Virus record (IMG/VR): IMGVR_UViG_3300009183_000269
Span: 1 to 29,404 of that record
Length of the DNA: 29,404 bases
Source of the DNA: a virus
Strand: one strand, 5' to 3'
In this document: positions 1 to 7,381 of the stretch, one piece after another
Numbering within the stretch: the stretch's first letter is position 1
Layout: each line of letters opens with the position of its first letter
The notes under the pieces: generated by a model
The model's input: only the letters and a program-made list of their open reading frames with translations
Database searches by the model: none
What the model was told of the DNA's origin: nothing
Made by a program: the position numbers and the translations under genes

Positions 1-570
1 GAAGCTATCTAGGTACTCATACTGAGCCTTGCAGTCTTTAACAGCCGCTGAAGCCCCATTACGGATGCTCACAGTAGGCCACTTGCTGCCTGTCATCTGA
101 TACGAAGCTAGGGCATCTAGTTCACCTTCGACAATGGTGATGTACTTACCTTCTTTCTGAAACAAAGACTGTCCGAAAAGTGTCGCTTTCTGAAAGTTTC
201 CGGCGATGGAGAATGTCTTGTTCTCTACAGATCGAATCTTCTCAGCTACCTTCAAGCCTGTCTCATCAAAGTAAGGATAGTAGTGCTTCCCTGTCTCCTG
301 TGTGACACCGAAGAACTCACAGGTTTCCCTGACGATCCCTCTGTCCACTATGGCCTTCACTTCCCCTTGTGTCTTCATTTGAAATACCTTTGTTGTCTGT
401 TGTTTATACGCAACAGGCTCATCATTTGAGCTATTGACGTAGTTATGACAAGCATGACAGTATGAATGCCCATCGTCATAGAGTGAGTTCGCGTCTGAGC
501 TACCACAATGGTCACAAGAGGTGTGACGTAGGAACTTAGACGCTACCTTGAGGTTACCCGTAGTAATCAT
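1..570 (-). CDS. T7 gp4-like DNA primase-helicase, N-terminal part (cut by window edge)
   Basis: The first 190 codons are present and the reading frame is open to base 1, so the C-terminal part, including any helicase domain, lies outside the window. Translation of the minus strand shows a zinc-binding domain with Cys19-x2-Cys22 and Cys38-x2-Cys41, the same arrangement as the T7 gp4 primase. A TOPRIM motif IVEGELDALA follows (E148 is the expected metal-binding glutamate), and then a stretch ending SIRNGASAAVKDC that closely parallels T7 gp4. By family knowledge the protein makes RNA primers and unwinds DNA at the fork. The start at 570 has AAGGAG about 10 nt upstream; an in-frame ATG at 579 is only 1 nt from that site and less likely. 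The gene overlaps the end of the upstream zinc-motif gene, suggesting translational coupling. Confidence 0.92.
   Translation of the reverse strand, partial: MITTGNLKVASKFLRHTSCDHCGSSDANSLYDDGHSYCHACHNYVNSSNDEPVAYKQQTTKVFQMKTQGEVKAIVDRGIVRETCEFFGVTQETGKHYYPYFDETGLKVAEKIRSVENKTFSIAGNFQKATLFGQSLFQKEGKYITIVEGELDALASYQMTGSKWPTVSIRNGASAAVKDCKAQYEYLDSF
398..415. repeat. TGTTG-N8-CAACA dyad inside the primase gene
   Basis: TGTTGTTTATACGCAACA, perfect arms with the same 8-nt spacing as the intergenic copies. It is coding on the minus strand (residues around PVAYKQQ of the primase-helicase), so selection at the protein level could explain it, but the match to the intergenic element is striking. Confidence 0.4.
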
Positions 571-730
571 CGCAATCATTCTCCTTGTCTACTGGTTCAT
601 CACCTGTGCCTCCACAATGGTAGCAACTAGAACCATCGTACATGCCCTCGCCTGAGCCATTACAGACATGGCAGTAATCAAACTCGTCTATCTCATCGGT
701 GTAGTCTTCATTGTCTTCATCGTGTTCCAT
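554..730 (-). CDS. Small acidic protein with DnaJ-type CxxCxGxG zinc motifs
   Basis: A 58-residue, very acidic protein. It carries CHVCNGSG and CYHCGGTG, two CxxCxGxG repeats like those of the DnaJ cysteine-rich domain, which together would bind one zinc. I chose the ATG at 730 because AAGGAG sits about 10 nt upstream; an upstream ATG at 772 in the same frame would add 14 residues inside the preceding gene. It overlaps the preceding gene by 14 nt and the primase start by 17 nt. Function is not recognised. Its place directly before the primase suggests a replication accessory or regulatory role, but that is inference. Confidence 0.75.
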   Translation of the reverse strand: MEHDEDNEDYTDEIDEFDYCHVCNGSGEGMYDGSSCYHCGGTGDEPVDKENDCDDYYG

Positions 731-1443: not shown

Positions 1444-1719
1444 TTAATGTTCTTCATGTTCATCATAGTCTCTATAGTTCTCTATAGTATCTATAATGAT
1501 GTCATGAAGTCCTGTAGAATCCCCTGTGTCCGCAATATCGTCATCTTCATCGGTGTCGAAGTCCTGTTCTGTCATCAATGCTCGATTGTCGATTGTAGGA
1601 ATGATTGTCTTCACATCTTCAAAACAAACTTTACATAAGTCTAAGAACTGAAATGTAATGGCGTGTTTTCGTGTCGCTTCAAAATCAGATAGCAGACGAT
1701 CGCAGTTTACGCAGTGCAT
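1444..1719 (-). CDS. Small two-CxxC zinc protein with acidic tail
   Basis: A 91-residue protein starting MHCVNCDRLLSDFEATRK, with Cys3-x2-Cys6 and Cys29-x2-Cys32, a classic four-cysteine zinc ribbon in its first 35 residues. The second half is strongly acidic (clusters of D and E), ending YDEHEEH. AGAGG lies 6 nt before the ATG. Similar small zinc proteins with a DFEATRK-like segment occur in the early regions of T7-like phages. The combination of zinc ribbon and acidic tail suggests a protein-binding or DNA-mimic role, but this is inference. Confidence 0.75.
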   Translation of the reverse strand: MHCVNCDRLLSDFEATRKHAITFQFLDLCKVCFEDVKTIIPTIDNRALMTEQDFDTDEDDDIADTGDSTGLHDIIIDTIENYRDYDEHEEH

Positions 1720-3879: not shown

Positions 3880-4608
3880 TTAGTTAACTACGAAACCAGT
3901 ATTGTCACGTTTTGCGGCGCCCTTAGCGTATAAGCCTACAATTACCCCTTGATCATCCAAGTGTCTTACGTCCGAATTGTCTCCGGACACTACGCGAATA
4001 CCCTTGAATGACAATGGGATATTTTCAATTTTACGGAAAACAACCGCCATTCGCATACCCTTCGATTGTGCTTTTTGGACATAAGGGGCAAAAGTAGAGA
4101 CACCACTGTAAGAGAATGTTAAATCATAGTTTACGGGCAAATCTTTGCGGTTTGCGTCCTTCGTATAATCGTAGAATTGCACTGTAGGGAATGCTTCGAA
4201 GATATTAGCGTACGGTACCCCGTCAATCGTTACTGGTATTGTCTCCCATCGAATGTCACTGGTTCCGTTCAATCGTACTAATGGATCTAGTTTTTTAGCA
4301 TATGCTTTTTTGATCAAACTTTGGACATTCTTAACTAGTTGATCCATGAATTCTGCACGTGCTTCGAAAAAGTACAGTGTCTTATCTATGCGTGATTGTT
4401 GAACGCTATTGAATGCACCACGTCCGGCACTGTAGAGACATGCCACCGCACATTGTGCCTTATGCGCCATCGAACATGTATTGTACTTAGTAGTATTTGC
4501 GGGCGCGAGATAGAGAATACCAGTTAAGTACCCGATCTTCTCGCCCTTGATTGTTTTGCTATCTGCAGAGATAGAGAGAAGGTTTTTAGATTTCTTGAAT
4601 GTAGTCAT
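3880..4608 (-). CDS. Gp88/DUF7227-like early protein
   Basis: A 242-residue soluble protein with an N-terminal segment NLLSISADSKT...GYLTGILYLAPA followed by Cys45, Cys53 and Cys57 in the order C-x7-C-x3-C, ending CLYSAGRG. From memory this is the layout of the mycobacteriophage Gp88 / DUF7227 family (a C...C...CY segment following a short N-terminal strand region), whose function is not established. The clustered cysteines could hold a metal or iron-sulfur centre; no SAM-binding motif can be confirmed by eye. The rest is alpha-beta without TM segments. AAGGA lies about 10 nt before the ATG. It is the largest complete gene of the early operon and close to its promoter end, so it is probably expressed early. 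Confidence 0.7.
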   Translation of the reverse strand: MTTFKKSKNLLSISADSKTIKGEKIGYLTGILYLAPANTTKYNTCSMAHKAQCAVACLYSAGRGAFNSVQQSRIDKTLYFFEARAEFMDQLVKNVQSLIKKAYAKKLDPLVRLNGTSDIRWETIPVTIDGVPYANIFEAFPTVQFYDYTKDANRKDLPVNYDLTFSYSGVSTFAPYVQKAQSKGMRMAVVFRKIENIPLSFKGIRVVSGDNSDVRHLDDQGVIVGLYAKGAAKRDNTGFVVN

Positions 4609-4645: not shown

Positions 4646-4723
4646 TTATGCGGTTAACCAAATAACCACAATAGCGATAAACCCTAAGACATAAATAATT
4701 TTATCTGTTACTTGATTGTGCAT
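4646..4723 (-). CDS. 25-aa single-TM micro-protein, first gene of the early operon
   Basis: MHNQVTDKIIYVLGFIAIVV then IWLTA. Residues 8-24 form one hydrophobic TM-like helix after a short polar N-terminus. AAGGGG lies 6 nt before the ATG, identical in type to several neighbours, which makes it more than a chance frame. It is the most promoter-proximal leftward gene seen. Function unknown; a membrane-modifying early peptide is possible. Confidence 0.55.
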   Translation of the reverse strand: MHNQVTDKIIYVLGFIAIVVIWLTA

Positions 4724-4742: not shown

Positions 4743-4751
4743 TGTTGATAA
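4743..4751 (-). promoter_or_regulatory. DnaA-box-like 9-mer
   Basis: Minus strand TTATCAACA, one mismatch from the TTATNCACA DnaA box. The same 9-mer recurs at 4916-4924. Short motif, so chance is possible. Confidence 0.25.
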
Positions 4752-4850
4752 CGTAGTTTATATTGCACGATGTATGCCAACTAAGATTTTGTAGTACTGC
4801 AGTATTACTTATAGGATATACGTTGATATTATGTAACCTATTGTCTTATG

Positions 4851-4870
4851 TGTTGTTTTTATGCAACACT
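4851..4870. repeat. TGTTG-N8-CAACA dyad, copy 1
   Basis: TGTTGTTTTTATGCAACACT. Perfect inverted arms TGTTG/CAACA around 8 nt. Related copies lie at 4967, 5056 and 5085, and a perfect-arm copy at 398-415 in the primase gene. Looks like an operator, iteron or phage-specific promoter element. Confidence 0.6.
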
Positions 4871-4915
4871 ATTGATGCACTAATATGATGCATTTATGCC
4901 CCATAATGAATAAAC

Positions 4916-4924
4916 TGTTGATAA
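4916..4924 (-). promoter_or_regulatory. DnaA-box-like 9-mer (second copy)
   Basis: Minus strand TTATCAACA, identical to the copy at 4743-4751, in the same orientation within the same non-coding region. Confidence 0.25.
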
Positions 4925-4966
4925 CTTTTAACTGTTTTGGTGCAGATTTGCTTACACGAAACTGAC

Positions 4967-4986
4967 TGTTGTTTTTATACCACACT
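4967..4986. repeat. TGTTG-N8-CAACA dyad, copy 2 (one arm degenerate)
   Basis: TGTTGTTTTTATACCACACT, 18 of 20 bases identical to copy 1 and placed 116 nt from it. The right arm is CCACA rather than CAACA. Followed by TCAGAGACT, similar to the flank of copy 3. Confidence 0.55.
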
Positions 4987-5055
4987 TCAGAGACTAGGTG
5001 TTTACCCTTAGATCTAAATAGTTATACTAAATAGGTGCTACATAGCTACTCACAC

Positions 5056-5075
5056 TGTCTCTTTTTAGCAACACT
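5056..5075. repeat. TGTTG-N8-CAACA dyad, degenerate copy
   Basis: TGTCTCTTTTTAGCAACACT keeps the right half (GCAACACT) exactly and about 15 of 20 positions overall. The left arm is changed, so only one half-site is intact. The following TCATAGCACT resembles the flank of copies 2 and 3. Confidence 0.4.
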
Positions 5076-5084
5076 TCATAGCAC

Positions 5085-5104
5085 TGTTGTGTAAATACAA
5101 CACT
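5085..5104. repeat. TGTTG-N8-CAACA dyad, copy 3
   Basis: TGTTGTGTAAATACAACACT, perfect TGTTG/CAACA arms with an 8-nt centre, 118 nt from copy 2. The bases after it (TCACTGACT) resemble those after copy 2. Confidence 0.6.
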
Positions 5105-5143: not shown

Positions 5144-5152
5144 TACTTGATA

Positions 5153-5197
5153 GGGGGGGAGGGGGAGGCTTGGGTGTTTACTTTTGTGGGAGCCTCC
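5153..5197 (+). other. G-tract (possible G-quadruplex) with adjoining stem-loop
   Basis: G7-A-G5-A-GG-CTT-GGG at 5153-5174 satisfies the pattern of four G3 runs with short loops. Overlapping it, GGAGGCT (5164-5170) pairs with AGCCTCC (5191-5197) across a 20-nt loop. No T-run follows, so it is not a standard terminator. The two structures are mutually exclusive. Confidence 0.45.
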
Positions 5198-5298
5198 TAA
5201 GTACACAAAAAAGAGTAATTAAGAAAGTAGACAATCATGACTAAAAAGTCTATAGAAATCATGGAACTTAACATAATAATTGGGGACAGGTTAGATCT

Positions 5299-5415: not shown

Positions 5416-5443
5416 TTGACAAATGAGAAAAGTACTATATAAT
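5416..5443 (+). promoter_or_regulatory. Sigma70-type promoter for the terminase operon
   Basis: TTGACA at 5416-5421, 16 nt, then TATAAT at 5438-5443: both hexamers match the consensus perfectly. The upstream bases (AGTACTTGACAAAT) are shared in part with promoters at 7651 and 13959. Predicted start near 5450, just at a hairpin. Confidence 0.88.
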
Positions 5444-5697: not shown

Positions 5698-6129
5698 ATG
5701 GAACAGAGCACAGAGTTAAAGGTTAGTAGCTTGGATTCTCTCAAGCGAGGACGAGGTAGGCCCAAGAAGGGTGAGATAGTAGCTAAGAAGTCCAAGAATA
5801 GAGGAACCTTAGGTCGTCCTAAGGGTGATAAGGCTATTATCGATGAGTACAAAGCTAGGATGCTTAACTCCCCTAAGTCAGCTAAGGTCTTAGAGACTAT
5901 CCTCAATGCAGCTCTCAATGATGACCATAAGAACCAAGCAGCTGCATGGAAGCTAGTCGTAGATAGGATAATGCCAGTAAGTGCCTTCGAACAAACTAAA
6001 CAAGGATCTGGTACTCCTTCTATTAGCATTAACATTACAGGTCTCACTGCGCCTGTGGTTGATGCTGAAGAAGTTATGTATGACATCACGGACGTAGAGG
6101 CTAAGAACGAAGTGGACAATGATGACTAG
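5698..6129 (+). CDS. Small terminase subunit-like DNA-binding protein
   Basis: A 143-residue protein with two AT-hook-like motifs near its start, GRGRPKK (residues 18-24) and GRPKG (39-43), then a helical region (residues about 45-95, AIIDEYKARMLNSPKSAKVL ...) and an acidic tail. It lies directly upstream of and overlaps the large terminase by 11 nt, which is where the DNA-recognition subunit is normally encoded. AT-hooks contact the minor groove of AT-rich DNA; the AT-rich leader just upstream is a natural packaging-start candidate, but this is inference. The ATG has AAGGA 5 nt upstream. No direct similarity to a named TerS family was recognised, so the call rests on position, size and DNA-binding motifs. 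Confidence 0.7.
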   Translation: MEQSTELKVSSLDSLKRGRGRPKKGEIVAKKSKNRGTLGRPKGDKAIIDEYKARMLNSPKSAKVLETILNAALNDDHKNQAAAWKLVVDRIMPVSAFEQTKQGSGTPSISINITGLTAPVVDAEEVMYDITDVEAKNEVDNDD

Positions 6130-7381
6130 TCTCAACTTTGAACTCCTAAAATGGCAGCAGTCTGTCTTCGCTGATAAGCATCGCTTCAAGGTCGTAGCAG
6201 CTGGACGACGTTGTGGTAAGTCTAGGCTCTCAGCTGTGACCCTCCTCATTGAGGCTCTGAATTGTCCTGAAGGGTCAGCTGTGATGTACATAGCACCTAC
6301 CCTAGGACAAGCTAGAACTATTATGTGGGACTTGTTGCTAGACCTAGGTAGACCAGTCATCAAGTCATCTCACGTTAATAACTTGGAGATCACCCTTGTC
6401 AACGGAAGAAAGATTCTGGTACGTGGTGCTGATAATCCTGATTCTCTACGGGGTGTCTCTCTTACTTACGTAGTGCTAGACGAGTGTGCCTTTATCAAGG
6501 AAGACACATGGCAGAAGATCATACGAGCTTCCCTGTCTGACAAAAAAGGTAGAGCCTTGTTCATCAGTACCCCTAGTGGACGTAACTGGTTCTACGATCT
6601 GTTCAACCTAGGTCAAGAAGAGACTGACGAAGAATGGCGAAGCTGGCACTACACCACCAAGGACAACGAGACTATCGATCCTAAGGAGATTGAAGCTGCT
6701 GAGAGGACTCTAAGCTCCTTTGCCTTCAAGCAAGAATACTTGTCTTCCTTCGATACTGCCGGTAGTGATTTATTTAAAGAAGAATGGTTAAAGTACAAAG
6801 ATGAACCTCAATATGGTGATTACGTCATTGCGATTGACTTGGCGGGTTTTGAAGATGTGGCTAAGAACGCGGGAGCCTCTAAGAAGCGCTTGGATGAATC
6901 AGCGATCACTGTCTGCAAGATACTAGACAACGGTGACTGGTGGGTTAAGAAGATCATCCACGGACGTTGGGACATCAGAGAGACTGCTTCTAAGATCCTC
7001 CTAGCTGTCAAGGAGTATCAACCTGTCGCTGTGGGTATCGAGAGAGGAGCCTTGAAGAATGCTGTGATGCACTACCTTCAAGACTTGATGAGGAAGAACA
7101 ATGTGTATACGCACATCCACGACCTCACCCACGGGAACAAGAAGAAGACAGATAGGGTCGTATGGGCCTTACAAGGTCGTTTCGAGCATGGACGTATCTC
7201 CTTGAACGTCGATGAGGATTGGAAGCAATTTGAGGATCAGTTCATTATGTTCCCCGCCACAGGGGTTCACGATGACTTGATTGACTCCTTGTCTTACGTG
7301 GATCAACTGGCTATGACTAACTACCAGCAAGACTACGAAGAAGACGATCACGAAGTTTTAGATGTAATATCAGGATACTAA
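6119..7381 (+). CDS. terL: Terminase large subunit (packaging ATPase and nuclease)
   Basis: A 420-residue protein with the full large-terminase motif set: Walker A GRRCGKS (29-35), Walker B VVLDE (118-122), and the coupling motif ISTPSGR (149-155). The RNase H-like nuclease follows, with Asp240 in VIAIDLAG, Glu308 in VGIERGA, and the C-terminal HDDLIDSLSY motif (Asp386/Asp389). By family knowledge it powers DNA translocation into the prohead and cuts the concatemer. It overlaps the upstream gene by 11 nt; either of two adjacent ATGs (6119 or 6122) may be used. Length and motif order are typical of podovirus and siphovirus terminases. Confidence 0.97.
   Translation: MMTSLNFELLKWQQSVFADKHRFKVVAAGRRCGKSRLSAVTLLIEALNCPEGSAVMYIAPTLGQARTIMWDLLLDLGRPVIKSSHVNNLEITLVNGRKILVRGADNPDSLRGVSLTYVVLDECAFIKEDTWQKIIRASLSDKKGRALFISTPSGRNWFYDLFNLGQEETDEEWRSWHYTTKDNETIDPKEIEAAERTLSSFAFKQEYLSSFDTAGSDLFKEEWLKYKDEPQYGDYVIAIDLAGFEDVAKNAGASKKRLDESAITVCKILDNGDWWVKKIIHGRWDIRETASKILLAVKEYQPVAVGIERGALKNAVMHYLQDLMRKNNVYTHIHDLTHGNKKKTDRVVWALQGRFEHGRISLNVDEDWKQFEDQFIMFPATGVHDDLIDSLSYVDQLAMTNYQQDYEEDDHEVLDVISGY

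Follow-up and report, generated by a model that had tools for sequence, protein, structure and literature searches.

Phage repressor operators, such as lambda OR/OL and those of P22 and 434, are palindromic sites of ~17–22 bp that are present in multiple copies in a divergent control region. The dyads described here, with the form TGTTG-N8-CAACA, share all of these properties. Unlike the lambda, P22 and 434 operators, the dyads have neither an adjacent repressor gene nor an identified lysogeny gene, and copies are also found within early coding sequence kilobases away. A second comparison is with the stoperators of cluster A mycobacteriophages, bound by L5 gp71. Stoperators (PMC9283540) lie in many copies over the early genes, where they are thought to halt elongation. 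The dyads resemble them in that copies of one site are spread across early genes. They differ in being palindromic, fewer, and without a known repressor, stoperators being asymmetric sites bound by a monomeric repressor.

Chromosomal parS sites, bound by ParB, form a third point of reference. Like parS, the dyads are scattered near an apparent origin in both intergenic and intragenic positions, and two relatives have a true parS-type site at a distance of 14 bp from a dyad; in contrast to parS systems, the dyad sequence is not that of parS and no par genes are recognised in the phages. As at origins with DnaA boxes (oriC and iteron plasmids), DnaA boxes cluster in the non-coding region that holds the dyads, whereas the dyads are not tandem iterons and the DnaA boxes of the DNA analysed here are degenerate. 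With HMO-2011-type and related marine podoviruses, the dyad-bearing phages share a T7-type primase-helicase (at most 50% identity), PolA, a GP88 gene and the SU10-type portal family. Their terminase and portal are, however, distant, with best matches of ~25% identity for terL and portal alike; no close sequenced phage was found in the collection, and no isolate among the phages searched is close to the lineage.

Gene layout and dyad copies

The window, the whole stretch of DNA that was analysed, is the full IMG/VR record IMGVR_UViG_3300009183_000269 of 29,404 bases. A leftward early operon fills its left 4.6 kb, with the N-terminus of a primase-helicase at the edge, many small genes, and a GP88-family gene. 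A rightward structural operon begins at 5698 and contains the presumed terS, terL, an SU10-type portal, and head and tail genes. The features of the early and control regions, apart from the dyads, are as follows:

1–579, minus strand: T7-type DNA primase-helicase, N-terminal part at the record end, by family match
1444–1719, minus strand: small acidic C4 zinc-finger protein, found in 16 of 16 genomes compared, without family assignment
3880–4608, minus strand: GP88-family gene (PF17338 / phrog_1617), by family match
4646–4723, minus strand: small membrane peptide, a 25-codon ORF (MHNQVTDKIIYVLGFIAIVVIWLTA), gene 1 of the leftward operon, kept in most relatives
5416–5443, plus strand: sigma70 promoter TTGACA-16-TATAAT of the terS-terL-portal operon, a 12/12 match in the promoter scan
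5698–6129, plus strand: presumed terminase small subunit, conserved adjoining terL, without family match
6119–7381, plus strand: terminase large subunit, by family match

Two AT-hook-like stretches (RGRGRPKKG and LGRPKGD) stand at the start of the presumed terS and are conserved in relatives. At least 110 stretches in IMG/VR encode a terL relative, and those of 36–41 kb show the remaining early operon, which includes PolA, endonuclease I, a 5'-3' exonuclease and a class II ribonucleotide reductase; no RNA polymerase was recognised in these early operons. Common to all dyad-bearing genomes are the primase, reductase, phosphoesterase, exonuclease, terL, presumed terS and acidic zinc-finger protein, and nearly all have an SSB-like protein and PolA. 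Gene presence or absence does not discriminate genomes with dyads from those without, the dyad-poor records being fragments or few. A search of bacterial genomes with terL found no relative that could indicate a host.

The 18-mer TGTTG-N8-CAACA is found with perfect 5-bp arms at 398–415, 4851–4868 and 5085–5102, and with one arm mismatch, CCACA, at 4967–4984. Scored with a matrix made from the sites of other genomes only, with the window's own sites left out, the copies are:

398–415, minus strand: dyad in the primase-helicase gene, 23.4 bits, in the linker that follows the zinc domain, encoding ..PVAYKQQT..
4851–4868, minus strand: dyad copy A, 24.0 bits
4967–4984, minus strand: dyad copy B, leftward TGTGGTATAAAAACAACA, 24.8 bits
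5056–5073, minus strand: half-site, no full dyad (leftward TGTTGTATAAAAGAGACA in relatives), 5.8 bits, within background
5085–5102, minus strand: dyad copy C, leftward TGTTGTATTTACACAACA, 25.9 bits

The window thus holds several copies of a repeated palindromic site, at a significance well resolved from chance. The four dyads top its ranking, with the next best position at 7.5 bits, and the best score in 300 order-2 Markov windows had a median of 10.4 and a maximum of 20.6 bits. The 20-mer pattern TGTTGTNNNNATNCAACACT with up to three mismatches finds 10 matches in the window, compared with 1.3 expected and a maximum of 5 in dinucleotide shuffles. A preliminary description of this DNA had listed the four dyads and given the spacings between copies A, B and C as 116 and 118 nt, all of which is correct. 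It had also read 5056 as a degenerate dyad, a copy that is withdrawn here: the position scores as background and is only a half-site, although it is conserved as TGTCTCTTTTATACAACA in six relatives (L007, L009, L032, L034, L035 and L037), even in those without copy C.

Distribution, conservation and symmetry of the sites

Among 80 terL loci (832 kb), 95 sites of at least 17 bits are spread over 49 loci, and 100 shuffled windows contain none. For 48 loci the positions were charted, and there every site of at least 17 bits lies left of terL: some are in the divergent control region, at about −580 to −2000 relative to terL, and the others in the leftward operon, out to −7.3 kb. Two relatives outside this chart (G016 and G017) have one strong site each, intergenic and on the rightward side. 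Control regions contain between 0 and 4 dyads, some relatives having none. In the more distant GP88 phages tested the dyad is not amplified, its counts being equal to those of a reversed-pattern control, with the exception of five loci (L135–L144) that have single sites 0.7–1.3 kb ahead of gp88.

The arms of the dyads are better conserved than their surroundings, taken as 40 bp on either side. For copy A, arm identity is 0.89 against 0.58 in the flanks (nine orthologous copies); for copy B, 94% against 77% (six orthologous copies); and for copy C, 0.97 against 0.39 among its orthologous copies. The A–B spacing is 116 bp in six of the six genomes that have both, and the B–C spacing is 108–119 bp across orthologues. 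The dyad of the primase gene recurs at the equivalent point of the gene in L012, L025, L029 and L021 and is absent from that point in G001, G002 and G019. Non-random placement and retention at matching positions in relatives, the two points on which the preliminary description had let the motif stand or fall, are both observed. Other conserved sequence is found nearby. The words TAGGTGTTTACCC and ATAGGTGCTACAT beside copy B (4991–5045 in the window, and in relatives) are retained in L022 despite loss of the adjacent dyad, and the control region at 5150–5215 has a conserved G-run and an inverted repeat, CACAAAAG...CTTTTTTGTG, with a weak fold (z −1.7).

Aligned leftward, 31 de-duplicated control-region copies give the consensus A-G-TGTTGTATWWAYACAACA-G-T with two-fold symmetric information content, in which the outer A (−10) and T (+11) form a symmetric pair that extends the site to a 22-bp palindrome. 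The leftward AGTGTTG edge noted earlier as an asymmetric feature is indeed common to the window's copies; with a partner T for the outer A, the edge is partly this wider palindrome.

A second kind of asymmetry is seen in the variant arm TGTGG, which is upstream in 19 of 20 informative copies, many of them within coding sequence. Coding copies occur at three places: in the primase linker (window, L012, L021, L025 and L029), in many relatives at the start codon of a short gene (V-V-K-I-Q-H..WPFP), and in a third small gene (VVNKQQYSLG). All three are in the identical frame, T-GTK-GT.-...-...-CAA-CA, in which T and G at the variable base both give Val and the mirror change would replace Gln by Pro; the alternative frames give cysteines or stops. 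The variable base of coding copies is mostly the third base of the Val codon, so these copies look like a DNA word fitted to protein-coding constraints. As a sign of a directional element, the strand polarity (19:1 by copies) was rejected as mostly codon constraint, and it is not established because the non-coding groups, counted by independent group, have the variant arm oriented only about 4:2. The dyads are accordingly not asymmetric sites held in one orientation to transcription, as stoperators would be.

Proposed operators of the leftward early operon and rival readings

The preliminary description had offered three readings of the dyads: repressor operators, a leftward phage-specific promoter family, and replication iterons. 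Operators are the best fit of the three, given sites that are palindromic, variable in number and position, both intergenic and intragenic, confined to the control region and early operon, and more conserved in their arms than in their flanks. The dyads form a genuine, conserved family of operator-like sites; that they are bound by a dimeric regulator of the leftward early operon is the most likely reading and is given an even chance of being correct. Further points in favour of operators are the symmetric information content with its outer A/T pair, the lack of compensatory RNA pairing, and the overlap, in orthologues, of copy A with the −35 position of a possible weak promoter facing leftward. 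The operator core would be TGTKGT-N6-ACAACA with a W-rich centre, in the control region as ANTGTTGTN6ACAACANT, and a two-fold symmetric regulator is predicted to bind it. One to four such operators would stand in the divergent control region before the leftward early operon, with others inside early genes and one at a start codon. The bound protein may repress or shut off leftward early transcription, both at the promoter and as roadblocks, and looping between copies A and B is possible, their constant 116 bp corresponding to 11 helical turns. Dimer binding, repression and looping are what we infer; the sequences themselves show the family, its confinement to control region and early operon, the conserved arms, the constant A–B spacing and the absence of RNA pairing. 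For a phage lineage that is widespread and uncultured and has no obvious regulator, the dyad is a strong candidate cis-element of gene control.

Three observations count against operators: the control-region number of 0–4 with none in some relatives, the lack of a leftward promoter clear enough to show dyads covering it, and the results of the search for a regulator. The search covered 116 early proteins from six relatives and 37 proteins of the window, and the stronger Pfam and PHROG matches listed for them include no repressor or HTH family; the listed families are those of enzymes, structural proteins and proteins of undefined function. Two candidates were rejected. A winged-helix-like ORF of 89 amino acids in the gap between primase and polymerase (L165:16671–16940, G001) has no relative in the other genomes compared, and the universal zinc-finger protein is very acidic and an unlikely binder of a palindrome.

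With no recognised HTH protein common to the dyad-carrying genomes, the binder may come from the host or be a phage protein that escaped recognition. In the first case the phage would time its early genes with a borrowed operator of a host transcription factor. This possibility is distinct from the operator and the origin readings and overlaps both, and it is plausible though doubtful. It would account for the missing phage regulator, and host-type DnaA and ParB sites share the dyad region. It is opposed by the bacterial genomes themselves: in a sample of 369 gammaproteobacteria, 39 have any site and none more than three, so that no regulon of the perfect-arm motif is seen, although the host is not identified and its genus may lie outside this sample. 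When bacterial and viral collections were scanned for the exact dyad pattern, the matches listed belonged to scattered taxa and indicated no host.

Returning to the phage's own transcription, the dyads could be read as a family of phage-specific leftward promoters. All charted copies are situated within leftward genes or ahead of them, and the claim that no clear sigma70 promoter faces leftward is borne out, the scan giving no good promoter and a single 9/12 site far to the right. The downstream arm of copy A falls where a weak leftward promoter would have its −35 box (ACAACA, 17 bp, CATAAT at 4828–4833), some orthologues have TACATT or CATAAT 16–18 bp past ACAACA, and −10-like words are found 16–18 bp past copies A and C in some orthologues. 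The −10-like word is consistent only at the position of copy A, where one leftward promoter may, by its sequence, overlap a dyad. As a family, promoters are very unlikely. The 58 de-duplicated copies share no sequence beyond the palindrome, no −10 box stands at a fixed distance overall in either direction, the site is two-fold symmetric, and several copies lie within coding sequence or on a start codon. No phage RNA polymerase or sigma factor was recognised among the early and window proteins scanned, those above 300 amino acids being partly covered, and the leftward operons read in relatives showed no ORF as large as a single-subunit RNA polymerase. On the rightward side, the 12/12 promoter at 5416–5443, which the preliminary description lacks, is also present in G001 by alignment; late genes such as a terminase and structural operon would not be expected to have a perfect sigma70 consensus before them without some other control as well.

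An RNA hairpin in the leftward transcripts, acting in processing, attenuation or translation control, is the least probable of the readings and can be given hardly any weight. Perfect copies can form a stem of 5–6 bp with a loop of 6–8 bases, and copies lie within transcribed regions, one of them at a ribosome-binding site. Pairing is nevertheless not maintained: of 38 distinct variants, 15 break pair 4–15 and none compensates for it, and covariation is below that of shuffles.

The control region as a probable replication origin

The control region contains a second class of sites. The control regions, 86 kb in all, contain 58 copies of the DnaA box TTATCCACA, compared with 8 in 525 kb elsewhere, a ~44-fold enrichment; permuted 9-mers in the control regions have a median count of 0 and a maximum of 23. 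Of these boxes, 48 of 58 point leftward, and 27 of the 48 terL loci have at least one. The boxes form a cluster in one non-coding region in relatives, and those of the window are only degenerate. One sublineage also has a chromosomal-type parS, TGTTTCACGTGAAACA, in its control region, and no par genes were recognised in this sublineage. The sites are:

4743–4751, minus strand: second DnaA-box-like sequence, TTATCAACA, from the box scan
4916–4924, minus strand: degenerate DnaA box TTATCAACA between copies A and B, aligned with a true TTATCCACA in relatives
L070, 8909–8924: parS, 0–1 mismatch, 14 bp from a dyad
L072, 8842–8857: parS, 0–1 mismatch, 14 bp from a dyad
L073, 2045: parS, 0–1 mismatch
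L074, 1844: parS, 0–1 mismatch
L075, 1173: parS, 0–1 mismatch

The window itself has no parS within two mismatches, and the dyad sequence differs from parS. From the DnaA-box enrichment and the parS sites of one sublineage, the control region is probably a replication origin as well as an early control region. In each of five relatives, the cumulative GC skew reaches its lowest value at the control region or immediately to its left, a pattern that divergent transcription alone could also cause.

The dyads may belong to replication rather than transcription, and a role at the origin is possible because the DnaA boxes cluster in the dyad region. A replication or partition function is the main rival to operators, a minority possibility that we consider somewhat unlikely. 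The divergent region would be an origin that recruits host DnaA, and ParB in some relatives, with the dyads binding a further initiator, an origin-organising protein or a centromere-like protein. Palindromes scattered near an origin, in and between genes, resemble chromosomal parS, and the DnaA boxes, the neighbouring parS sites and the GC-skew minimum agree with such a function. The skew is, however, confounded by divergent transcription, no ParA/ParB-like or initiator gene was recognised, and some dyads are 3–7 kb from the region. The earlier suggestion of replication iterons is not supported in its classical sense, the dyads being present in 0–4 copies, ~110 bp or kilobases apart and scattered up to 7 kb, without iteron-like clustering. 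Tandem direct repeats at helical-turn spacing with an adjoining initiator gene are not found.

A broader proposal is that this is a lytic lineage with a chromosome-like origin hub, which would combine host DnaA boxes, host-type parS in some members, and the dyad, to which a third and so far undescribed protein of origins or nucleoids would bind. Host chromosome-maintenance proteins would then run the replication and segregation of the phage as well as its early transcription. This is speculative and decidedly unlikely. More generally, the dyads and the co-located DnaA boxes and parS mark the likely replication origin of T7-type replication modules without their own RNA polymerase. To our knowledge, the mechanism by which replication starts in such modules is not settled.

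Origin-type sites are also seen in other loci. A further parS with 0–1 mismatch is at L150:2981, and a degenerate one with two mismatches is at L096:6079. In distant GP88 phages (L136, L139 and L141–L145), DnaA boxes are found upstream of gp88 and are mostly directed towards it.
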